Program-made: the position numbers and the translations under genes | Assembly (NCBI GenBank): GCA_007692605.1 | Contig: REBS01000113.1 | Coordinates: 20,546-84,545 of the forward strand | Reading direction: 5' to 3' | Source: Gemmatimonadales bacterium | Lineage (GTDB): Bacteria > Gemmatimonadota > Gemmatimonadetes > Longimicrobiales > Gaopeijiaceae | Length of the DNA: 64,000 bases | Notes under the pieces: generated by a model | Seen by the model: the letters and a program-made list of their open reading frames with translations, nothing else | Databases searched by the model: none | What the model was told of the DNA's origin: nothing | Part shown: piece after piece, positions 1,812 to 15,427 of the stretch | Numbering within the stretch: position 1 is the first letter of the stretch | Layout: each line of letters begins with the position of its first letter

Positions 1812-4800
1812 TCAGCGCCTCGGGACCTCTCGGTCGGTGATCGCGGCGACGACGGCGTCGTGTACGGCGCGGCGGAAGGCGATGTGCCGCGAGTTCTCGC
1901 GGGTCGGATTCACCCGGTTGGTCAGCAGGACCACCCAGAGGTCGAGCTCGGGGTCCAACCAGATCGAGGTGCCCGTGAAGCCGGTGTGTCCCCAGGACCG
2001 GGCCGAGAAGTAGTCGCCGGCCGATGATCGTCCTGAAGGGGTATCCCAGCCCAGGGCGCGCGAAGAGCCCGTCACCGCCCCCTCGGGAGATGCCCGGGTG
2101 AAGGCCTGAACGGTCGCCGAATCGAAGACCCGTGTCTCGGCCGAGCGCGCCCGGGCGCAGGGCGTTCCGCTCCCCGTATCGTGCCGGCAGGGGGCAGCGG
2201 CGCCTCCCGAAGCGAGCGCCTGCATCAGCACGGCCAGCTCCTCGGCACTCCCGAAGAGCCCGGCGTGACCGGCGACCCCGCCCACCGTGAAGGCGTTCTC
2301 GTCGTGCACCTCGCCGTGCATCTGGCGCATGCGACGCTCCATGTCGATCTCGGTCGGCGCAATGCGGTCGAGGAGGGCGGTGTCGGGGTTGAATCCCGTA
2401 TGCGTCATCCCCAGAGGCGCGTAGATCCGCCGTTCGAGGAAGGGGGCGAAGGGCTCCCCGGCTGCAGCCTCGATCACCCAGGCCAGCGTCATGAAGCCGA
2501 TGTCGGAGTAGACCATCGCCTCGCCCGGGGGACGGTCCAGGCTCAGGTCCCAGATCGCCTCGCGCACGGCCGACTCACTGTCGAGAGTGAGGAAGAACTG
2601 GCGGTAGGCCGGAAATCCCGACTGGTGCAGGAGAAGGTCGCGCACCGTGACGGCCTCCTTGCGGGCATCCCCGCGCGCGAAGTCCGGAAGGTGCCGGACC
2701 ACCGGGTCGTCGAGCCTCAGGCGCCCCTCCTCGACCAGCGCCATGACCCCCAGCGTCGTGCCGACCACCTTGGTCAACGAGGCCAGGTCGTAGAGCGACG
2801 ACGGGGTGACCGGGGGGCTCCCGTCCGCCCAGTCCAGCTGCCCGTAGCCCCGCAGGCGCACCAGGCGGCCGCTTCGACCCACGGCGATCGCCACCCCGGG
2901 GGCCACGGAATCCGCGATCGCGTTCAGGATGTACGTGTCGAGCGCCTGGAGCCGGGACTCACTCATCCCCGCCGAGGCCGGAGCCGTCTCGAGGGGGGAG
3001 GCGGTTCGCTCCAGCCAGGCGACGGGCGGGGGGGCACCGGTCGCCGGGGCGGGAGCGGGCACCGGGCGCAGCGCCGTGGGCCCCGGCCGCGCGGGATCCG
3101 GATCGTCCTCGGGAGGTGGGGCCGGATCCTCGTCATGGCGCAGGAGCCCGGCTTCGTCGAGGGCGTCGCCGCGCAGCTCCCCGCGGGCGGCCATGACCGG
3201 GTCCGCCGCACGGCGAAGGCCGTCGCCCCTCTCGTGCAGGGGAGGGATCGAGATCGGGAGACGACCCTCGATGGGCTCCGCGCCGACCAGCGCCCGGGCG
3301 GCCGCGCGCTGACTGATCTCGCGATCTCCCCACGCCACCAGGTAGCTGCCCACCTCGGGCAGGGCGGTCAGCAGGTAGGGGTTCCCGAAGGAGACGAGGA
3401 CGCTGGGGTGCCGGGTCGAGAGGACCGACACGAACTCCCGGAAGTCGTCGGGCAGCGCCACCGATCCGGCCCCCGCCCGCGGGGGCAGGTACACGTTGAC
3501 CAGCGTCAGGTCCACCTCGGCCGCACGGTCCAGGAGCGTCGCGAAGGTGCCCTCACCGGTGTCGGGCCCGACCCGCACGGGCTCGGCCACCCCGGGCAGG
3601 AGCGCCTGCAGTACCGCGTCGAATTCGCGGCCCGCGATCAGGTCGGTGGTCTCGGCCCAGGTGATCGAGAGGATCCGGCGCGTGGTCTCGGGATCGGGCG
3701 AAAGGAGTCCGTCGTGATCCCTGACCAGGGTCATGGAGCGGGCCGACGCCTCGCGCGCCAGCTCCCGATGCGCCGCCGACCCCACCGTCGCCGCGACGGC
3801 ATCCGGAGAGACCCGGCGGTGATCGTGCAGCCCGGCCCGCGCCTTCTCGGCCAGGATCCGCCGCACCGAGCGATCCAGGCGCTCTCGTGTGATCCGCCCC
3901 TCCTCGACGGCCTCGACCATGGCATCGACGGCGCCGGGCACGCTCGCCGGGATAAGGATGACGTCGGCGCCCGCCTCGAAGGCCAGCACCGCGGCCTCAC
4001 CGGCGCCGTATGCCTCGGTGATCGCGCCCATCCGCAGCGCGTCGGTGTAGAGGAGGCCCTCGAAACCCATGTCCTTTCGAAGAATCCCGGTCATGAACTC
4101 GGGCGAGAGGGTGGCCGGCGGGGCGCCGGGCCCGAGCACCCCCGGCACCGAGACGTGCGCGGTCATCACGCCATCGACCCGCTCCCGGACCGCCTCGGCG
4201 AAGGGGACGAGCTCCATCCGGTCGAGCCGTTCCCGATCGGCCGTGACCTCGGGCAGGGTGAGATGGGAGTCCACCCGCGTGTCTCCGTGCCCCGGAAAGT
4301 GCTTGGCAGTGGTCATCGCCCCACCCGCCCGCGCCCCCCGGATGAAGGCCCGACCCATTCGGCTCACATCGTCGGGGTCCTCGCCGAAGGCCCGGGTGTT
4401 GATGATGGGGTTCTCGGGATTCGAGTTCAGGTCGAGGACCGGCGCGAAGATCACGTGCACCCCGACCGCGCGGGCCTCCCGGGCGGTGGCGGCGGCGAAC
4501 CGCTCCACCAGCCCCTCATCTCCCACCGCCCCGAAGGCCATCGTCGGGGGAAAGCTGGTCCCACCCCCCTGGGGGAGGAGGGTGGGGAGGGCGTAGCTGT
4601 GGGCGATCCGCATCCCCGGGCCCCCATTCTCGAAGTCCGAGGTGACGAGGAGGGGGATGTCGGCCCGATCCTGCAGCGCGTTGAGCTTCGCCACGTAGGC
4701 GTGCGGGGTCCCGATCGAGATCGCCACTCCCCCGATCCCGTCCTCTTCGACCCAGCGGAGGGTCTCGAGGAACTCCGGGTCGTCGAGCGCCGCGTAGGAG

Positions 4801-5081
4801 CCGGCGATCCAGGGAAAGACGAGCTGACCCACCGCTTCGCGCAGCGAGAGGGAGGCCAGCGTCTCGTCGACCCACGCCTCGCCGCGGGCGTCGGGCGCAT
4901 CGAGCAGGGCGGCACGAGGACCGGGATCGGTGGCGAACGGGTGCGCGGTGGGGCCGGCCGGGCTGCAGGCGGCGACGCCGACCAGGGCAATCAGCCCCGC
5001 GACGAGAGCCCCGGGCCCGATCCGGTCACGGACCCGGCGGCTGGACGGGTGGATCGCCCCCTCCCGGGTGCACCCCATCAT
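1812..5081 (-). CDS. Lipoprotein with N-terminal GH3 (NagZ-like) domain fused to C-terminal class-C beta-lactamase-family serine hydrolase domain
   Basis: Start MMGCTREG at 5081 (the 1500-aa ORF N-terminal part is an antisense/shadow extension). Lipobox LVGVAAC; KHFPGHGDTRVDSHLTLP and LLYTDAL (NagZ-type catalytic motifs); Pro/Ala-rich linker about 2967-3190; SLTK, YSD and HTG motifs of the beta-lactamase/transpeptidase-like fold. Confidence 0.9.
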   Translation of the reverse strand: MMGCTREGAIHPSSRRVRDRIGPGALVAGLIALVGVAACSPAGPTAHPFATDPGPRAALLDAPDARGEAWVDETLASLSLREAVGQLVFPWIAGSYAALDDPEFLETLRWVEEDGIGGVAISIGTPHAYVAKLNALQDRADIPLLVTSDFENGGPGMRIAHSYALPTLLPQGGGTSFPPTMAFGAVGDEGLVERFAAATAREARAVGVHVIFAPVLDLNSNPENPIINTRAFGEDPDDVSRMGRAFIRGARAGGAMTTAKHFPGHGDTRVDSHLTLPEVTADRERLDRMELVPFAEAVRERVDGVMTAHVSVPGVLGPGAPPATLSPEFMTGILRKDMGFEGLLYTDALRMGAITEAYGAGEAAVLAFEAGADVILIPASVPGAVDAMVEAVEEGRITRERLDRSVRRILAEKARAGLHDHRRVSPDAVAATVGSAAHRELAREASARSMTLVRDHDGLLSPDPETTRRILSITWAETTDLIAGREFDAVLQALLPGVAEPVRVGPDTGEGTFATLLDRAAEVDLTLVNVYLPPRAGAGSVALPDDFREFVSVLSTRHPSVLVSFGNPYLLTALPEVGSYLVAWGDREISQRAAARALVGAEPIEGRLPISIPPLHERGDGLRRAADPVMAARGELRGDALDEAGLLRHDEDPAPPPEDDPDPARPGPTALRPVPAPAPATGAPPPVAWLERTASPLETAPASAGMSESRLQALDTYILNAIADSVAPGVAIAVGRSGRLVRLRGYGQLDWADGSPPVTPSSLYDLASLTKVVGTTLGVMALVEEGRLRLDDPVVRHLPDFARGDARKEAVTVRDLLLHQSGFPAYRQFFLTLDSESAVREAIWDLSLDRPPGEAMVYSDIGFMTLAWVIEAAAGEPFAPFLERRIYAPLGMTHTGFNPDTALLDRIAPTEIDMERRMRQMHGEVHDENAFTVGGVAGHAGLFGSAEELAVLMQALASGGAAAPCRHDTGSGTPCARARSAETRVFDSATVQAFTRASPEGAVTGSSRALGWDTPSGRSSAGDYFSARSWGHTGFTGTSIWLDPELDLWVVLLTNRVNPTRENSRHIAFRRAVHDAVVAAITDREVPRR

Positions 5082-7129
5082 CGATCCTCCGGGGCGGACC
5101 CGGTTGCGGCCCCCACCGAACAGAGCGCCGCTCCATTGCCCCCGGCCGGCCCCGCAGCCGTCCGGGCCGTGCCGAGCTGGATTCCGTCTCCGATCTGGAA
5201 GCCGGGTGGAATCCGCGTCGGCGTGCGCCCGGTGATGGGCACATCGCCGAAGAGGGAGCGTGCCGCCGCCCGCTGGCTCTCTTCGGATCCACTCCACGCG
5301 AGTAGATATGCCTGCGCTTCCGGGAACTCCCTGAGCAGGTAGGGATTCCCGAACGATACGACGACGTGGGGGACCCGGGTCTCGGCCAGCCTTCGGATGA
5401 GCCGGGAGAGCTCCTCGGGGACCGCGACGCTTCCCGCGTAGGCGACCGCGGTGACGTGCAGCGAGATGACCACGAGGTCGCTCGAGCTGGCCCGCTGCAG
5501 GATCCGCTCGTACTCCTCGGCCGGGGTTGCCTGGCCGATCGTGCGGGTCTGCAGCCGTGGGTAGGTTTGCCGCAGTCGCTGGTCGAAGGCGCGCCCTCCC
5601 ATCAGGTCGTTCGTCCGGCGATAGGTCACCGAGAGGACATCGGCGGTTCCGGTCCCCAGCAGGGGCAGGATGCCCCGCTCGTTTCGGAGCAGGGTCAGGG
5701 AGCGCTCGGCGATCTCCCGGGCCATCGCCGTGTGGGTGGGGATCCCGACCGAACGATGCAGCGCCTCGAGGTCGACGGTGCGCTCCTCGTGCAGCCCCAG
5801 CGCCTCCTTCTGGCCGAGGATCCGGCGGACCGAGGCGTCGATGCGCGACTCCGGGATGCGTCCGGCCAGGACCGCGTCGACCACGCCCCGGATCGCGGCC
5901 TCGGGATCCGGGGGCATGAGCAGGACGTCGGCACCCGCGAGCACCGCCTGCACGGCGGCCTCTCCGCGCGAGTAGAGCCGGTCGATCGCATTCATGTCCA
6001 TGGCGTCGGTGAAAACCAGTCCCTCGAATCCCATCTGCTCGCGCAGGAGCCCCGTGAGCACGTTGCGAGAGAGGGTCGCGGGCAGCCGGGGATCCTCGGT
6101 CAGCCCGGGCATCGCGATGTGCGCCGTCATGATCGCGCCCATCCCCGCGTCGATCGCCTCGCGGAAGGGCCGGAGCTCCACCCGGTTCAGCCGCTCGGAG
6201 CCCACCCGGATCACGGGCAGGGCCAGGTGCGAATCGGTCTCGGTGTCGCCGTGCCCGGGAAAGTGCTTGCCCGTCGCGACCGCCCCGTGGTCGTGGATTC
6301 CCCGGATGAAGCACGCACCCAGCTCCCCGACGCGGGCCGGGTCCTCGCCGAAGGATCGGGTGTTGATGATCGGGTTATCGGGGTTGTTGTTCACGTCGAG
6401 CACGGGCGCGAAGGGGACGTGGATCCCCGAGGCGCGCGCCTCGACCGCGGTGATCCTCCCCATTTCATAGGCGAGGACGCGTTCGTCCGCCGCTCCCACC
6501 GCCATCAGCGAGGGGAAGTTGGTCGCCCCTCCCAGGTCGTGCACCCCGGGCAGATGGATCGCGCCCCGCAGCCGGAACCCCGCACCGGTCTCGAGGTCCG
6601 CCGCCACGAGAAGGGGAAGGTGGGAGCGGCGCTGCGCCACATTCGTCTTCGTCGCCACGTCGATCGGCGTGCCCACCGAAACGATCATGCCCCCGATCTC
6701 GTGGTTGTCGATCATGCGGGCGAGCCGTTCGAACGAGGGACTCCCCTCGGGCGCGAAGTCTCCGAGCACCCAGGGCATGATCATCTGCCCCACCTTCTGT
6801 CGCAGACTGAGCGTCTCGAGCGTCGCCTCGGTCCAGGCGCCGGGAGGGCCTCCGGGCGCGGGCACCGGAAGCGGGGTCGCCGGGGGAGCGCCGGGCGTGC
6901 GATCCGGGCCGGCCATCACATCGTCACGGGTCACCCGGGGGTCCCCACCCGCCAGGGTGTCCGGACGAGGAAGCGAGTCCACGGGGATGGGGGGCGCCTC
7001 GACGGCCTCTTCGGCAGCCGGAGGTGAAGGGGCCGGGGGGACCTCCCTGGAACACCCGACGCCCACGACGGCGACGAGCAGGAGGAGTATCGCGGGGCGA
7101 ACAACGGTGCCAGGCGGCGGATGCATCAC
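5078..7129 (-). CDS. Glycoside hydrolase family 3 beta-N-acetylglucosaminidase-like lipoprotein (NagZ-like)
   Basis: Lipobox VVGVGC; GKHFPGHGDTETDSHLALP; FEGLVFTDAMDMNAI; stop overlaps start of the downstream paralogue (ATGA). Confidence 0.9.
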   Translation of the reverse strand: MMHPPPGTVVRPAILLLLVAVVGVGCSREVPPAPSPPAAEEAVEAPPIPVDSLPRPDTLAGGDPRVTRDDVMAGPDRTPGAPPATPLPVPAPGGPPGAWTEATLETLSLRQKVGQMIMPWVLGDFAPEGSPSFERLARMIDNHEIGGMIVSVGTPIDVATKTNVAQRRSHLPLLVAADLETGAGFRLRGAIHLPGVHDLGGATNFPSLMAVGAADERVLAYEMGRITAVEARASGIHVPFAPVLDVNNNPDNPIINTRSFGEDPARVGELGACFIRGIHDHGAVATGKHFPGHGDTETDSHLALPVIRVGSERLNRVELRPFREAIDAGMGAIMTAHIAMPGLTEDPRLPATLSRNVLTGLLREQMGFEGLVFTDAMDMNAIDRLYSRGEAAVQAVLAGADVLLMPPDPEAAIRGVVDAVLAGRIPESRIDASVRRILGQKEALGLHEERTVDLEALHRSVGIPTHTAMAREIAERSLTLLRNERGILPLLGTGTADVLSVTYRRTNDLMGGRAFDQRLRQTYPRLQTRTIGQATPAEEYERILQRASSSDLVVISLHVTAVAYAGSVAVPEELSRLIRRLAETRVPHVVVSFGNPYLLREFPEAQAYLLAWSGSEESQRAAARSLFGDVPITGRTPTRIPPGFQIGDGIQLGTARTAAGPAGGNGAALCSVGAATGSAPEDR

Positions 7130-7276
7130 GAATCGGATCCCTCGAGTCCATGGGTTCGGCGGAGACTGTCTTCAAGGTAGGCGCGGCCGGGAGCCGGGAC
7201 AATCGACTCGGGAGCCCGAACGATCGACCCGGGCACCGCGTTGACCGCCCCTCGGCCTCCCCGTCATCTTTCCTTC

Positions 7277-8596
7277 ATGCCCGCTCTCCTTCGTTCGTAC
7301 CCGACTCGTGCTCTCCCGGCTCCCGCCGCGCTCCTTCTCCTGCTCTTCGCCGCGTGTGGTGCCGGTCCGGGCGACAGTGCCCCGATCTCGGCGGACGGCG
7401 CCGTCGAGAGCGGGGCCGAGGCCACCGATCCCGTGCGCCCGGGGATCGACGTACTCCTCTCCGACTCCCTGCACCTGATCGAGGGACGACGCGTGGGGCT
7501 CGTCACGAACCACACGGGGATCGATCGCGAGGGGGTGTCGAGCATCGACCGGCTGCACGGCGCGGTCGGGGTCGAACTCGTCGCACTCTACTCTCCGGAG
7601 CACGGAATCCGGGGCACGGCCGAAGCCGGGGAGCTGGTGGACCACACCGTTGACGATCGCACGGGACTCCCGGTCCACTCCCTGTACGGCGACACCCGCA
7701 AGCCGACCCCCGAGATGCTCGAGGGCGTCGACGTCCTCCTCTTCGACATCCTCGACATCGGGGCCCGCTACTACACCTACATCTACACGATGGCGCTGGC
7801 GATGGAGGCCGCGGGCGAGGCGGGGATCCCCTTCGTGGTGCTCGACCGTCCGAATGCGATCGGGGGATGGGCGACGCAGGGGAATATCCTGGATCCGGCC
7901 TTCTCGTCGTTCGTGGGGATGTATCCGATCCCGATCCGGCATGGGCTGACTCCGGGGGAGCTGGCACGGGTGTACCGCGGGGAGTTCGGGGTCGTGGCGG
8001 AGCTTCACGTGGTTCCCGTGGAGGGCCTCCGGCGGACGATGGACATGACGGATACCGGACTCCCCTGGACGCCGCCATCCCCCAACATGCCCTCGCTCGA
8101 GAGCGCCTATCACTATCCGGGCACCTGCCTGTTCGAGGGGACGAACCTGTCGGTCGGGCGCGGGACGGATCGGGCCTTCCAGCAGATCGGGGCCCCCTGG
8201 CTCGATGCGGAGCGGGCGGTGACCAGGCTCGAGGCGCTCGGGCTGGACGGGGTGCGCTTCGAGGCCGTGACCTTCGTCCCGACCACACCGGGCGACGGGA
8301 AGTTCGCCGGCGAAGAGGTGCGGGGGATCCGGCTGCACGTGACCGATCGCGAGCGCTACAACCCGACGCGTGCCGGTGTCGCGCTCCTTTCGGTGACGCG
8401 GGCGCTGGCGCGTGGGGACGGGGAGTCCGCCGACCGGTGGGAGTGGCGGACGTCTCACTTCGATCGACTGGCCGGAACCGACGTCCTCAGAGAAGGGCTC
8501 GACGAAGGGCGCGCGATCGATGCGCTCGTCGCCGGGTGGGACGAGGCGTCCCGCGCCTTCGGCGAGCGGGTGGAGCCGTACCGCATCTACCCCTGA
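7277..8596 (+). CDS. DUF1343 / NamZ-like exo-beta-N-acetylmuramidase lipoprotein (GH171-type)
   Basis: Lipobox LFAAC; GIDVLLSDSLHLIEGRRVGLVTNHTGIDREG...YSPEHGIRG...GARYYTYIYTMALAMEAAGE...VLDRPNAIGG...EGTNLSVGRGTDRAFQQIGAPW are characteristic of DUF1343. Confidence 0.9.
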   Translation: MPALLRSYPTRALPAPAALLLLLFAACGAGPGDSAPISADGAVESGAEATDPVRPGIDVLLSDSLHLIEGRRVGLVTNHTGIDREGVSSIDRLHGAVGVELVALYSPEHGIRGTAEAGELVDHTVDDRTGLPVHSLYGDTRKPTPEMLEGVDVLLFDILDIGARYYTYIYTMALAMEAAGEAGIPFVVLDRPNAIGGWATQGNILDPAFSSFVGMYPIPIRHGLTPGELARVYRGEFGVVAELHVVPVEGLRRTMDMTDTGLPWTPPSPNMPSLESAYHYPGTCLFEGTNLSVGRGTDRAFQQIGAPWLDAERAVTRLEALGLDGVRFEAVTFVPTTPGDGKFAGEEVRGIRLHVTDRERYNPTRAGVALLSVTRALARGDGESADRWEWRTSHFDRLAGTDVLREGLDEGRAIDALVAGWDEASRAFGERVEPYRIYP

Positions 8597-9254: not shown

Positions 9255-9359
9255 CTTCCCTGTGGCCAGCCTACAGCGGCGCACTCGCCCCGAGTCCCAC
9301 ATCCGGGACCGGAGACCCGGTGACGCGCCAGAACGAAGAACCACTTGGGAGCCACAGAA

Positions 9360-9872
9360 ATGAAGAAAGTGACCATGATCCTCGCCCTCACCGCCTTTCT
9401 CGCGATTCCGGCGATGGGATCCGCGCAGGCGCAGGGAGACGAGGGAGTCGTCAACGCCACCGCCACCGTGATCGCCCAGCTCGAGGTTGCGGGCGAAGAA
9501 GACCTCCGCTTCGGCGATGTGATTCCGGGAATCGCCTCCAGCGTCGCCGGCACCGACGTGGCGAACGCCGGTCGCTTCCGCATCCAGGGTGGCGGGGACC
9601 AGCAGGTCTCTCTCGATTTTGACCTTCCCGAAGACCTCGATGGCCCGGGCAGTGCGACGATGCCGATCAGTTTCGGAACGAGTTCGGCCGGTCACAGCGC
9701 GAACTCGACGGCGGTCGCGGGAACCTTCAATCCGAACACTCAGCGCCTCCAGAACCTGGTGGGCGGTCAACTCTACGTCTTCATCGGCGGAACGGTGACT
9801 CCGGCCACAGCCCAGCCAGCCGGCTCGTACAGCGGTCAGATCACCCTGAACGTCGCCTACACCGGCAACTGA
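9360..9872 (+). CDS. DUF4402 domain secreted protein (candidate pilin-like subunit 1)
   Basis: MKKVTMILALTAFLAIPAMGSAQAQ signal peptide; EDLRFGDVIPG...GGTVTPATAQPAGSYSGQITLNVAYTGN typical of DUF4402. ATG at 9360 (track start 9345 is a TTG). Confidence 0.85.
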   Translation: MKKVTMILALTAFLAIPAMGSAQAQGDEGVVNATATVIAQLEVAGEEDLRFGDVIPGIASSVAGTDVANAGRFRIQGGGDQQVSLDFDLPEDLDGPGSATMPISFGTSSAGHSANSTAVAGTFNPNTQRLQNLVGGQLYVFIGGTVTPATAQPAGSYSGQITLNVAYTGN

Positions 9873-9946
9873 GTCCGCCCCGTTCGGTGGGGTCGGCGGG
9901 AGGTCCTCCCGCCGGCCCCCCGAGCGCGCGCTCACCCCGCCCCCCG

Positions 9947-10432
9947 ATGCCATTTCGCCTTCCTGTGACCCTTTCGATCGGGCTGCTCGCAATCGCGGTG
10001 CCCGGTGCGGCCTCGGCCCAGGAGGGCCCTCCGCTCGCGGTACAGGGTCAACAGGACCTGAGCTTCGGGGAGCTGCTGGGAGGGCTGGCGACCCAGGTCT
10101 CACCGAACGACGCGGGGCGGAACGCGCAGCTCCGAATCCGCGGCGCTCGAGACCAGACGATCGAGATCTCCTTCGAGCTTCCCGCTGAGATGACACGGCC
10201 CGAAGGTGGCTCGATCCCCCTGCTCTTCGGAGTGGCCGACGCGCAGTTCTCGGCCAGCGGGAGCACCGGCGATCGGATCCCATTCGACCCGAACACGCCC
10301 TGGACCATCACGCTGACCCAGCAGGGATGGTCCTGGATCTTCCTGGGAGGCACGGTCCAGCCCCCGGCCCAGGCGCCACTCGGAAATTACTCCGCAACGA
10401 TCACACTCACCCTCTCCGACCTCGGAAGCTGA
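9947..10432 (+). CDS. DUF4402-like secreted protein (candidate subunit 2, lacks the N-terminal extension)
   Basis: Signal peptide then EGPPLAVQGQQDLSFGELLGG...IFLGGTVQPPAQAPLGNYSATITLTLSDLGS; colinear with the 9360-9872 product. Confidence 0.8.
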   Translation: MPFRLPVTLSIGLLAIAVPGAASAQEGPPLAVQGQQDLSFGELLGGLATQVSPNDAGRNAQLRIRGARDQTIEISFELPAEMTRPEGGSIPLLFGVADAQFSASGSTGDRIPFDPNTPWTITLTQQGWSWIFLGGTVQPPAQAPLGNYSATITLTLSDLGS

Positions 10433-10439
10433 GGACACC

Positions 10440-11276
10440 ATGAAGACGCTGATTCGCTCGCTGACCCTGACCGTGCTGCTCGGCATGGGCGTTCTGACGG
10501 CCGAGGCGCTCTCGATCGTGGTCGCCCCCACGGCGGTCTACCTCGAGCACTCGACCCGCTCGGCCACGGTGACCCTCTTCAATCCCGGGAACACCCCCGA
10601 AGAGGTCACGATCTCGACGCTCTTCGGCTACCCCGCGACCGACGAGGACGGCCGCCTCCACCTGTTCACCGACGAGGCGGGCGACGATCCCCGGTCGGCG
10701 GCGGGGTGGCTGCGTGCCTATCCGCAGCGGGTGGTGGTCGCCCCCGGTGAGCGTCAGGTGGTCCGGCTCCTCGGCGAGCCCCCGGCCGACCTCGCCGATG
10801 GAGAGTACTGGGCGCGGCTGGCGATCACCTCGGGCACCGAGTCGACCCGGGTTGGCGCCGTTCCCGGTGAATCGGATGTCCGCGTCGGCCTCGACATGCG
10901 CGTGCGGACCGTGATCGCGGCCAACTACCGCAAGGGAGCGATCACCACCGGGCTCGAGATCGAGGACTTCCAGCCCTGGATCGAGGATGGACGCCTGCGC
11001 CTTCGCCCCCGGCTCCTCCGACAGGGGTCCGCGGCATACATCTCGGCGCTGACCCTGACCCTGACGAACCCGAACGGCGAGGTCGTGCGGGAGTGGCAGG
11101 AACAGGTGGCGGTCTACCGCGAGTACCGCCGCCTCTTCGAGTACGACGTGTCGGACCTGGGGCCGGGTCCCTTCCGCCTTCGGGCCCACTTCACCACCGA
11201 TCGAGACGATGTGCCCGCGGCCTTCCGGCTCCGTACGACTCCGATCGAGCGGGAAGCTCCCGTGTCCCTGCGCTGA
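10440..11276 (+). CDS. PapD-like periplasmic chaperone
   Basis: LSIVVAPTAVYLEHSTRSATVTLFNPGNTPEEVTIS...AYPQRVVVAPGERQVVRLL: PapD N-domain pattern; genomic position between pilin-like and usher-like genes. Confidence 0.75.
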   Translation: MKTLIRSLTLTVLLGMGVLTAEALSIVVAPTAVYLEHSTRSATVTLFNPGNTPEEVTISTLFGYPATDEDGRLHLFTDEAGDDPRSAAGWLRAYPQRVVVAPGERQVVRLLGEPPADLADGEYWARLAITSGTESTRVGAVPGESDVRVGLDMRVRTVIAANYRKGAITTGLEIEDFQPWIEDGRLRLRPRLLRQGSAAYISALTLTLTNPNGEVVREWQEQVAVYREYRRLFEYDVSDLGPGPFRLRAHFTTDRDDVPAAFRLRTTPIEREAPVSLR

Positions 11277-11290
11277 CCGGAGCCGACTCG

Positions 11291-14014
11291 ATGCGCTCCC
11301 CCCTCTGCACCGTCGCCGCCCTCCGGCCGGTGCTCCTCTGCCGACTCCTGGTCGTCTGCCTCCTGCTCGCAGCGGGTGAGCTTGCCGCGCAGGAGGGGAA
11401 AGGCCCCCGGTCTCCGGAATCGGCGCCGGCGATGGCATCCCCGGCGGCGGGCGTGAGCGCCACCCCCGACTCCCTCGGGCAGCCGATCGACATCCTGATC
11501 AATCTTCGCATGGGGCGCCTATCGGAGCGACTCGTGCCCGCGGCACAGCGCGGGGACACCCCCTTCCTCCCGGCGGCGACCTTCCTCGAGATGGGAGAGG
11601 TCTTCTTCGTCGAGAACGGGGACGGGGTCCTGCGAGCCACGCGGCAGCCGGGCGCGGTCGAGATCCTGGTCGATGCCGAGGCCGGCCGGGCCCGTCTCGG
11701 AGGCGAACTGCTGGCCGACATGACCGATCAGATGCTCTGGCGGGACGGTACGATCATGCTCACCCCCCGACTCCTCGAGCGCCTCCTGGGCGTCACGATC
11801 CACACGAATTTCTCGGACCTGCACGCCGTCGTCCTCAATCCCGAGGTGCTTCCCCTGGGGCGCCGGATCGAGCGGGAGCGGCGACTCGCCGTGCTCCGCC
11901 CCCCCGGTGCGACCCCTCCGGCCGAGCGCACCCTGGACCGCACCCCGTACCGCACCGGCGGCATGGTACTCGACTGGAGCACCTCGGCCGCGCTGGACCG
12001 GCCCCAGGAAAGCGCGCAGCTCTCCCTCGGCTTCGGCGCACAGCTCCTGGGGGGCTCCCTCCAGCTCAGCGGCCGCAGCCAGGGTCCCGTGGCGGACGGA
12101 GCGGTCGACACCGGGGCCAGCTACCACATCGCCTGGCCGCAACAGCGATGGCTCCGGCAGCTGCGCCTCGGAGACGGCCTCGGCTCCGGTCCCCGGCCAC
12201 GGTCGCTGCGCGGAATCCACCTCACCAACGCGCCCTACGTTCGCGACGCCTACTTCGCCACGGCCGAGGTGACCGGACGCCTGGGTCCGGGCTGGGAGAT
12301 CGAGCTGCGTCAGCAGGGGCGAACGATCGACATGACCCGGGCCGACGAGCAGGGGGCCTTCGCGCTCGACGTGCCCCTCAGCTACGGGACCAATCCCGTC
12401 GAGGTGGTGGCCTACGGTGCGCACGGTGAGGTCGTCACGATGGAGCGACTCATGCTCCTTCGGCAGGATCGGCTTCCGGGAGGCCGCTTCGAGTGGGGGC
12501 TGAGCGCGGGTGAATGCCGCTCGGGCGCCTGCCGGGCCTCGGGAAACCTGGACCTGCGCTACGGACTCTCCGACCGCTGGACGCTGCGCGCCGGCACGGA
12601 CGGATTCCACCGCGACACCCTCCCCGATCTCGCGCACCCCTACCTCGAGCTGTCGGGATCCCCGGTCCACTCGGTCCACCTGGGGCTCGAGGCGCTCTAC
12701 GACGGGTTCTACCGTGGGGTGACCGAATTCACCCCGTCGTCGAGTCTGCGTATTCGGGGCGCCTATACATGGTTTCAGCCCGACCTCGACGCGCCGGTCC
12801 TGCACGACGCCCGGCGACGCTCCACGACCGAGGCCGACCTCTTCTGGCGGCCCTTCGGAGGCGGCAACCGCTGGAGCCTGAGGGGCTCGGCGGTCTACGA
12901 GGAGCGGCGGGACGACTGGCGCCTCCGCTGGCGGGCGACCTCGGCCCTGCAGCTCGGCGGATACCGGGTCGAGCTGGGAGTGCAGGATCCGGGGCGCTAC
13001 CAGTCGCACGAGCTCGAGCGCGGCCTCTTCGTGTCGGGCGATCAACCGCTGCGGCAGATCGCCTCGGTTCGGGGGCGGATCCCCCTTCCGAGCCCGACCA
13101 CGCTCTCGCCCTGGCTCCACGCCGAAATCGAAATGATCGGGTGGGACTCGGTCGCCCGTGGTCAGCTTCGCCTCAGCTATCCGGTCACGCGCAGCACCCA
13201 GCTCAACCTCACCGGCGGGTGGGACCCGATGGGAGACCATCGCTTCACCGCGGGACTCCAGGCGACGCTCGACCAGCTCCGCTCCGTGACCCAGGTCTTC
13301 GGCGGGGCGAACCGCGAGACCCGCGCGCTTCAGTACGCCCAGGGGAACGTGCAGTGGAACGAGGCCACCGGTGGTTTCCGCCTCGATTCCGGACCGGGCG
13401 TGGAACGGGCCGGGATCTCGGGATACGTCTTTCTCGACGAGAATGGAAACGGGCGCCGGGATCCCGGGGAACCGGTGCTCTCGGGGGTCCGGGTGATGAT
13501 CGAGGGTCGAACGGTCACGACCGACGAACAGGGTCGCTACACGCACTGGGATCTCACGCCCTACGAGATGACCCGGGTGCAGCTGGACCCGATGACGTTG
13601 CCCAATCCGCTCTGGGTTCCGGCGCTCGGAACGATCGAGCTCCCCCTCGCCCCCTCGTCGTACCGTCGGCTCGACCTGCCGGTAGTGCCCGGCGCCGAGA
13701 TCAGCGGACGCATCGTTCGGATCTCCGACGGTGGACGCGAGGAACCGGTGGCCGGGATGGAGGTGGTGATCGCGGACCTGGTCCGGCCCGGAGAGGAGAC
13801 CGAGGTCACGACCTTCTCGGACGGGGGATTCTACGCCATGGGACTCAAGCCGGGAGCCTACGAGCTGCGAGTCCCTCCCGAACTTCTCGACCACGTCCAG
13901 CTCATCCAGGATCACCCCGACCGTGCGGTCGTCGTGCGGTCGAATGGAGAGGGCTCGGCCGGGAACGTCGTCATTCGCCTCGTACCGAGACCCGCCGTGA
14001 CGGCATCGCCATGA
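11291..14014 (+). CDS. Divergent outer-membrane usher-like beta-barrel protein with C-terminal SdrD-B/carboxypeptidase-regulatory-like domains
   Basis: Signal peptide; long amphipathic beta region (...LPGGRFEWGLSAGECRSGACRASGNLDLRYGLSDRWTLRAG...); GISGYVFLDENGNGRRDPGEPVLSGVRVMIEG plus a second Ig-like repeat. Confidence 0.65.
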   Translation: MRSPLCTVAALRPVLLCRLLVVCLLLAAGELAAQEGKGPRSPESAPAMASPAAGVSATPDSLGQPIDILINLRMGRLSERLVPAAQRGDTPFLPAATFLEMGEVFFVENGDGVLRATRQPGAVEILVDAEAGRARLGGELLADMTDQMLWRDGTIMLTPRLLERLLGVTIHTNFSDLHAVVLNPEVLPLGRRIERERRLAVLRPPGATPPAERTLDRTPYRTGGMVLDWSTSAALDRPQESAQLSLGFGAQLLGGSLQLSGRSQGPVADGAVDTGASYHIAWPQQRWLRQLRLGDGLGSGPRPRSLRGIHLTNAPYVRDAYFATAEVTGRLGPGWEIELRQQGRTIDMTRADEQGAFALDVPLSYGTNPVEVVAYGAHGEVVTMERLMLLRQDRLPGGRFEWGLSAGECRSGACRASGNLDLRYGLSDRWTLRAGTDGFHRDTLPDLAHPYLELSGSPVHSVHLGLEALYDGFYRGVTEFTPSSSLRIRGAYTWFQPDLDAPVLHDARRRSTTEADLFWRPFGGGNRWSLRGSAVYEERRDDWRLRWRATSALQLGGYRVELGVQDPGRYQSHELERGLFVSGDQPLRQIASVRGRIPLPSPTTLSPWLHAEIEMIGWDSVARGQLRLSYPVTRSTQLNLTGGWDPMGDHRFTAGLQATLDQLRSVTQVFGGANRETRALQYAQGNVQWNEATGGFRLDSGPGVERAGISGYVFLDENGNGRRDPGEPVLSGVRVMIEGRTVTTDEQGRYTHWDLTPYEMTRVQLDPMTLPNPLWVPALGTIELPLAPSSYRRLDLPVVPGAEISGRIVRISDGGREEPVAGMEVVIADLVRPGEETEVTTFSDGGFYAMGLKPGAYELRVPPELLDHVQLIQDHPDRAVVVRSNGEGSAGNVVIRLVPRPAVTASP

Positions 14015-14077
14015 CGGTCCGGATGCCCCAGATTGCCCCATGACCATTTCCAGACGCGAACCCACGGAGCCCACCGG

Positions 14078-15427
14078 ATGAGCCAGACGCTCCTCCTCGT
14101 CGACGACGACACCACCATCCTGGACTCGATCGGCCGCTACCTCGAGAGAGATGGCTTCGAGGTCCTGCTCGAGACCCGCGGGCACCCCGCCCTGGCCACT
14201 TTCGAGGCCCACCGCCCCGAGGTGGTGCTCCTGGACCTGAAGCTTCCCGACGTGGAGCACCTCGAGATCCTCGAGCGACTGCGGGAGTGGAATGCGTCGG
14301 TGATCCTCCTGACGGGGCATGCCGACGTGCCCACCGCCGTCGAGGCGATGCAGCTCGGAGCCGAGAGCTTCCTGGCGAAGCCGGTCGAACTCGACCATCT
14401 CTCCGCCGTCCTGAAGCAGGTGCTCGAGAAGAACCGGCTTCTCCGTGAAAACGAGCGCCTTCGGCAGGGAGGTACCGCGGCCGAGGGGCTCGAGGCCCTC
14501 GGGGTCTCTCCGGGGATGAGGGAGCTCTCCGCGCAGATCGAGATGCTCTCGGCTTCGGAGCGGACCACCGTCCTGCTGACCGGCGAGAGCGGGACCGGAA
14601 AGGGGTGGGTCGCCCGGATGCTGCACGGCCTCAGTCCCCGGGGCCGGCGGCCCTTCGTCGAGGTGAACTCGGCCGGTCTGACCCCAACCTTCCTGGCGTC
14701 CGAGCTCTTCGGCCACGAGAAGGGGGCCTTCACCGATGCCCGCGAGCGCCGTGACGGTCTCTTCCTCGAGGCCGACCGGGGCACCCTCTTTCTGGACGAG
14801 ATCGGGGAGATGAGCCTCGAGGTCCAGCCCCGGCTCCTGAACGTGCTCGAGACGCGAAGCTTCCGGCGCCTCGGGGGTACCGAGGAGCTGCATGCCGACG
14901 TTCGACTGATCGCCGCGACGAATCGGGACCTTTCGAAGAGGGTCGAGGACGGACGCTTCCGCAACGACCTCTTCTATCGACTCAATGTGGCCTCGCTCCA
15001 CCTGCCTCCCCTGCGGGAGAGAACCGACGACGACCGCCTGGCACTCCTGCACGGGCTGCTGAGGGGACTCCGCAAGGAGATTCCCGGGAGCGCCGATCGG
15101 ATCCACGACGACGCCCTCGAGGTCCTCCTCGCCTATCGTTGGCCGGGAAACATCCGGGAGATGCGAAACACCCTCGAACGGGCACTCATCTTCGCGGCCG
15201 GCGGTGAGGAGATTCGGCGGACACACCTGCCGGCCGAGCTCGTCCGGAAGGGGGGAGCGTCACGTTCGAAGGGCTTCCAACCGACGACGCTCGAGGCCGT
15301 CGAGGCCCGCCATATCGAGAGGACCCTCCTGCACCATCGAGGGAACCGGACGCATGCGGCGGACGACCTGGGGATCGCGCGCACGACCCTGATCAACAAG
15401 ATCCGAAAGTACGAGCTGGATCTGTAG
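14078..15427 (+). CDS. Sigma-54-dependent response regulator (REC-AAA+-Fis/HTH)
   Basis: REC LLLVDDDTTILDS..; Walker A GESGTGKG; GAFTDA loop (GAFTGA variant); LFLDEIGEM; C-terminal RHIERTLLHHRGNRTHAADDLGIARTTLINKIRKYEL Fis HTH. Confidence 0.95.
   Translation: MSQTLLLVDDDTTILDSIGRYLERDGFEVLLETRGHPALATFEAHRPEVVLLDLKLPDVEHLEILERLREWNASVILLTGHADVPTAVEAMQLGAESFLAKPVELDHLSAVLKQVLEKNRLLRENERLRQGGTAAEGLEALGVSPGMRELSAQIEMLSASERTTVLLTGESGTGKGWVARMLHGLSPRGRRPFVEVNSAGLTPTFLASELFGHEKGAFTDARERRDGLFLEADRGTLFLDEIGEMSLEVQPRLLNVLETRSFRRLGGTEELHADVRLIAATNRDLSKRVEDGRFRNDLFYRLNVASLHLPPLRERTDDDRLALLHGLLRGLRKEIPGSADRIHDDALEVLLAYRWPGNIREMRNTLERALIFAAGGEEIRRTHLPAELVRKGGASRSKGFQPTTLEAVEARHIERTLLHHRGNRTHAADDLGIARTTLINKIRKYELDL

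Follow-up and report, generated by a model that had tools for sequence, protein, structure and literature searches.

The window, by which we mean the whole stretch of 64,000 nucleotides analyzed here from a Gemmatimonadales bacterium, carries on its minus strand a single uninterrupted frame, running from 5081 to 1812, for a 1089-aa lipoprotein that joins a NagZ-type GH3 to a PBP4B/AmiE-like serine hydrolase (1812-5081, minus strand; assigned by frame, Pfam, NCBIfam, and motifs). A Shine-Dalgarno sequence, GGAGG (5090-5086), lies 4 nt 5' of the ATG at 5081, and residues 1-39 resemble a signal peptide with the lipobox VAAC and Cys39. Pfam placed Glyco_hydro_3 at residues 80-410 (E 1e-73) and PF00144 at residues 722-1071 (E 4e-62); a GH3_C match at residues 510-614 was sub-threshold (24.5 vs 31 bits). 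On the minus strand, GH3 domains 1 and 2 thus occupy 3237-4844 (residues 80-615; Pfam, Foldseek, and motifs) and the serine-hydrolase domain occupies 1869-2918. Between them lies a linker (2982-3176, minus strand, residues 636-700) with 16 Pro, 12 Ala, and 7 Asp among its 65 residues, predicted to be disordered from pLDDT values below 50 at residues 636-697. Relatives differ in both its sequence and its length, which ranges from 8 to more than 100 residues across homologues. The single frame, the Pfam assignments, and the VAAC lipobox bear out the sequence-only reading of this DNA, which had described a NagZ GH3 and a beta-lactamase-fold domain in one lipoprotein, connected by a Pro/Ala/Asp-rich linker at about 2967-3190.

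The GH3 half has the NagZ loop (KHFPG(H/N)G...DSH), here K260HFPGHGDTRVDSH, with the Asp/His dyad D271/H273 and the nucleophile D347, and the GH3 catalytic motifs are intact in 97 of 98 homologues. This half of the predicted structure is mostly above pLDDT 80 and shows the NagZ fold with domains 1 and 2. Foldseek matched it most closely to a Paenibacillus GlcNAcase (6k5j, E 3e-38) and to B. subtilis NagZ (3bmx, E 7e-38; also 4gyj). Judging from these motifs and the model, the GH3 half is a NagZ-type beta-N-acetylglucosaminidase, with release of GlcNAc from GlcNAc-MurNAc(-peptide) as its predicted reaction.

Directly upstream of the fusion gene is a gene for a second GH3 lipoprotein, GH3a (5078-7129, minus strand, 683 aa), which has GH3_N and GH3_C domains, an intact catalytic motif, and no beta-lactamase domain; its TGA overlaps the fusion ATG in a 4-nt ATGA. 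Divergent from this pair, across a 111-bp intergenic region (7130-7240), lies a gene for NamZ (7241-8596, plus strand), a member of the exo-beta-N-acetylmuramidase family, which acts on MurNAc ends. Both NamZ domains were detected (PF07075, E 3e-82; PF20732, E 9e-47), and this was the sole copy detected in the genome. The interval described in the sequence-only reading ends just before this part of the locus, and that reading did not mention GH3a or NamZ. A simple consensus scan of 7130-7240 found no sigma-70-like promoter, which is unsurprising given the GC-rich genome and the simple consensus used. Farther along the plus strand, the genes at 9345-15427 resemble a chaperone-usher pilus cluster of a non-canonical kind. 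They encode two DUF4402 proteins (9345-9872 and 9887-10432, the second just below the Pfam cut-off), a 278-aa chaperone-like protein that matched no Pfam family, a 973-aa usher-like protein in which CarboxypepD_reg and SdrD_B were matched, and an NtrC-type response regulator.

We sampled 150 Gemmatimonadota genomes and sorted the fetched loci by their open frames. Loci selected by similarity to the fusion, and not by NamZ, were considered informative if they combined a GH3 and a serine hydrolase with 2 kb or more of sequence upstream, and a divergent NamZ gene was found nearby in 43 of these 48. Two genomes of family f5 (G016 and G126) have the GH3 and the hydrolase but no NamZ nearby, which counts against the salvage role proposed below. 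In the GH3 tree, GH3a and the fused GH3 (GH3f) fell into two distinct clades, so they are paralogues maintained side by side in f1, the family to which the window belongs. A PADLOC search for defense systems returned no match, and membership in such a system was set aside.

Homologues of the fusion occur in other MAGs, one of them 95% identical (L002) and another 71% identical. The GH3 and the serine hydrolase share one frame in 30 of the 35 sampled f1 genomes, single-contig genomes among them (G017, G058, G070, and G075), which rules out an assembly chimera. The frame of the fusion gene is interrupted in G075 and G067, and in G093, where contig ends cut the gene, the serine-hydrolase piece nevertheless carries the GH3 end. 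Among the remaining f1 genomes, the gene is broken by contig ends in G138, and two genomes had no match for the serine hydrolase. Two more, G069 (L124) and G096 (L125), lack GH3f, and in their version of this NamZ locus the gene after GH3a encodes a stand-alone serine hydrolase; judging from these, the GH3 partner of the serine hydrolase seems to be interchangeable. Separate, adjoining GH3 and serine-hydrolase genes were also found at this locus in families f4 (L142-L145) and f2 (L139). The sequence-only reading had treated separate genes in relatives as grounds for suspecting an assembly fusion. Such genes were indeed seen in part of the sample, but because they are neighbors at this one namZ locus, and because many genomes carry the fusion, they support the pairing of the two domains rather than refute it.

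On the serine-hydrolase tree, there were at least four switches between the fused and the separate state within Gemmatimonadota and six over all rows. The hypothesis that all Gemmatimonadota fusions form one clade was rejected on this tree (p-AU 6e-5). The fused GH3s of f5 (L147-L153) sit on a GH3 branch other than that of f1 and f7. These switches may represent repeated gain or repeated loss of the fusion.

The serine-hydrolase half contains the motifs S768-LTK771 (2780-2769), Y858-S-D860 (2510-2502), and G1031-H1032-T-G (from 1991). Its best NCBIfam model was PBP4B (NF002968), with a score of 179-180 bits that is below the 385-bit cut-off, and it ranked first among the ten PBP4B matches of its own genome (180 vs 83 bits). 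E. coli YfeW (PBP4B) is 34% identical to the domain over 392 aa (E 1e-54). We aligned the domain with YfeW, Priestia PBP4B, stand-alone hydrolases from Deinococcus, Halorussus, and Streptomyces, and fusions from Bacteroidota and Lachnospiraceae, with AmpC and AmpH as contrast. The domain and its relatives have the signature D-x-A-S-x-[TS]-K / Y-S-D / G-H-T-G-[FYW]-T-G-T in common, with few deviating rows (e.g., YSC or YSG), whereas AmpC and AmpH have YAN/YSN plus K-T/G-G. The tree agrees in grouping the domain with PBP4B/AmiE-like hydrolases and placing AmpC and AmpH apart (support 100/98). Of 67 sequences, 64 retain all three catalytic motifs, and the outgroups AmpC and AmpH account for two of the three exceptions. 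Catalytic residues are intact in both halves, and the loss on alignment that the sequence-only reading had named as evidence against its proposal was not seen.

The domain combines PF00144 with an SxxK motif, a Tyr motif, and an H/K-T-G third motif, and is genetically linked to nagZ and namZ through the fused GH3 and the divergent NamZ gene, as expected of an AmiE-type enzyme. Its tie to B. subtilis AmiE consists of the common Pfam family and the similar gene neighborhood, and the sequence comparison was made with E. coli YfeW and Priestia PBP4B. Structure prediction, which had been proposed for both domains, gave a good, NagZ-like model for the GH3 half and a low-confidence model for the serine-hydrolase half (alignment depth, 19 rows). 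Since the latter was modeled poorly, we assign it no structural match and do not count its model as evidence. An antibiotic-hydrolyzing beta-lactamase is ruled out by motifs and model scores: the class C beta-lactamase score was 53 bits vs a cut-off of 415, and the motifs are YSD/GHTG, not YxN/KTG. The sequence-only reading had taken YSD to indicate an esterase, amidase, or peptidase rather than an antibiotic-hydrolyzing enzyme, and we agree with it except on the esterase. YSD is the usual motif of the PBP4B(YfeW)/AmiE-like group and does not particularly point to an esterase, and because genes of this group often lie beside MurNAc-salvage genes, amidase or peptidase action on muropeptides is favored over an ester substrate. 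We regard the domain as a putative MurNAc-L-Ala amidase.

On another contig of the same genome (C38, 23632-25721), murQ and anmK are adjacent, and the presence of AnmK suggests that anhMurNAc is among the sugars taken up. An AmpG model had no match in this genome (93.6% complete) at E 1e-3. If AmpG is lacking, the route by which E. coli imports intact muropeptides would be closed, and dismantling them outside the cytoplasm is a consistent alternative; the same argument was made for Rhodothermus (PMC6987092).

We propose that the fusion is probably a lipid-anchored bifunctional enzyme that combines NagZ and MurNAc-L-Ala amidase activities and breaks muropeptides down outside the cytoplasm. Its GH3 half would take the non-reducing GlcNAc off GlcNAc-(anh)MurNAc-peptides, after which the serine-hydrolase half would cleave the amide bond between MurNAc and L-Ala in the (anh)MurNAc-peptide that remains. 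NamZ would contribute as an exo-muramidase that removes MurNAc ends, and GH3a could act on other GlcNAc ends or be a spare. The combined products, free GlcNAc, (anh)MurNAc, and peptides, would be available for uptake, with the MurNAc sugars then processed by AnmK and MurQ. The earlier suggestion that both domains act on the same muropeptide is, in our view, probably correct.

The main rival explanation is that the serine-hydrolase domain is a DD-carboxypeptidase or endopeptidase, like AmpH, and would shorten the stem peptide, with the GH3 taking off GlcNAc. PBP4B is the best NCBIfam model, and no named relative closer than YfeW was found; that YfeW bears the name of a penicillin-binding protein and not of an amidase counts against our amidase reading. 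However, the PBP4B score of 179 bits is below the 385-bit cut-off, the YSD and GHTG motifs are unlike the YxN and KTG of AmpC and AmpH, and yfeW itself adjoins murQ-murP in E. coli. In addition, the linkage with NamZ, NagZ, AnmK, and MurQ suggests recovery of the sugars, for which an amidase is required. We therefore consider a DD-carboxypeptidase unlikely. That the domain is an esterase, a beta-lactamase, or a hydrolase of another kind, or that it is inactive and was joined to the GH3 by chance, appears quite improbable, even though PF00144 is functionally broad and its PDB sequence matches range from carboxylesterases to a D-amino acid amidase. Against these readings, the three catalytic motifs are retained, class C models score far under their cut-off, and GH3 and the hydrolase are paired again and again, in one gene or in neighboring ones, throughout Gemmatimonadota and in other phyla. 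We give very little credence to a locus for chitin or chitobiose use in place of peptidoglycan salvage, as NamZ family enzymes target MurNAc ends, the genome has murQ-anmK, and a peptide-directed serine hydrolase would have no obvious role there. The point in favor of chitin is that RmNag3, a fused homologue from Rhodothermus marinus, cleaves chitobiose and chitopentaose (PMC6987092).

A bolder extension of the bifunctional-amidase proposal, which we offer tentatively and think unlikely, is that one tethered chain carries both active sites and that these must act in a fixed order. The joining of NagZ to an AmiE-like domain would then have been selected several times independently, given the at least four switches inside Gemmatimonadota and the further fusions in Bacteroidota and Lachnospiraceae, since a lipid-anchored fusion could capture muropeptides, possibly from the walls of other bacteria, before they diffuse away.

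To our knowledge, AmpG-independent peptidoglycan salvage has been little studied outside Bacillota and Bacteroidota. The locus offers a concrete, testable salvage route for Gemmatimonadota, a large and mostly uncultured phylum. It also provides a specific predicted reaction for RmNag3-like beta-lactamase domains, which are often annotated as "GH3" or "serine hydrolase," and a warning that such domains should not be counted as resistance genes.

Relatives of the serine hydrolase occur in a range of other settings. In Bacteroides and Parabacteroides, "GH3 N-terminal domain-containing" proteins of about 1000 aa (L059 and L060) have GH3 and PF00144 in one frame, but are about 30% identical, lack an adjoining NamZ gene, and form separate branches in both trees. 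A GH3-hydrolase fusion is also present in Lachnospiraceae (L007), where the hydrolase groups with YfeW. A serine hydrolase of Lacimicrobium (L201, G153 C16), about 40% identical to the domain, lies on a contig other than that of its NamZ-MurQ locus (L009). As a separate gene, the hydrolase is found in the run GntR-AnmK-MurQ-hydrolase-GH3 in Deinococcus sp. NW-56 and between AnmK and NagZ in Deinococcus sp. KNUC1210. The arrangement is looser in Halorussus limi, with hydrolase, DUF1343, and NagZ within about 5 kb and one other gene between. On the H. limi plasmid (L063), a stretch of about 9 kb holds AnmK, a PGRP-family protein, the serine hydrolase, DUF1343, and NagZ; haloarchaea have no murein of their own, and this gene set suggests archaeal use of bacterial cell walls. 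In the class sampled around Amedibacillus, NamZ was found in 31 of 149 genomes, many with an adjoining GH3.

Among named systems, E. coli PBP4B/YfeW resembles the serine-hydrolase domain in sequence, in its YSD/GHTG motifs, and in having its gene beside murQ-murP, but it stands alone, without a GH3. B. subtilis offers the same three families (PF00144, GH3, and DUF1343) in clustered genes for AmiE, NagZ, and NamZ (ybbE, ybbD, and ybbC, the last of which we take to be namZ) and sequential extracellular degradation of muropeptides. That pathway has been demonstrated: the cluster is murQ-murR-murP-amiE-nagZ-ybbC, and AmiE and NagZ act sequentially on muropeptides (PMC5061867, citing Litzinger 2010). 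AmiE (ybbE) belongs to PF00144 and NagZ to GH3, and neither acts on intact peptidoglycan (PMC10653849). In B. subtilis, however, these are three separate genes together with murQ-murR-murP, whereas in the window NagZ and the AmiE-like domain are fused, an extra GH3 is present, and NamZ is divergent.

The closest parallel in architecture is RmNag3 (Rmar_0925), for which beta-N-acetylglucosaminidase activity was measured, and whose authors noted relatives in Salinibacter and Rhodohalobacter, the parallel with NagZ/AmiE, and the absence of AmpG (PMC6987092). With Bacteroidota and Lachnospiraceae, it confirms the earlier statement that similar fusions exist in other phyla. The accompanying remark that their substrate is not settled stands for the beta-lactamase domain of RmNag3 but not for its GH3, which has been assayed (PMC6987092). 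By its published description, RmNag3 is a single protein in which a signal peptide and GH3 domains 1 and 2 precede a C-terminal beta-lactamase domain (PMC6987092), so the three-part architecture seen in Gemmatimonadota, with proven beta-N-acetylglucosaminidase activity, was already known. Our analysis adds that the linkage to namZ is conserved, that GH3a is present as a paralogue, that the second domain can be assigned to a family, and that the two genes switched repeatedly between the fused and the separate state. The gene for RmNag3 lies away from other glycosidase genes, whereas GH3a and NamZ adjoin the fusion in the window.
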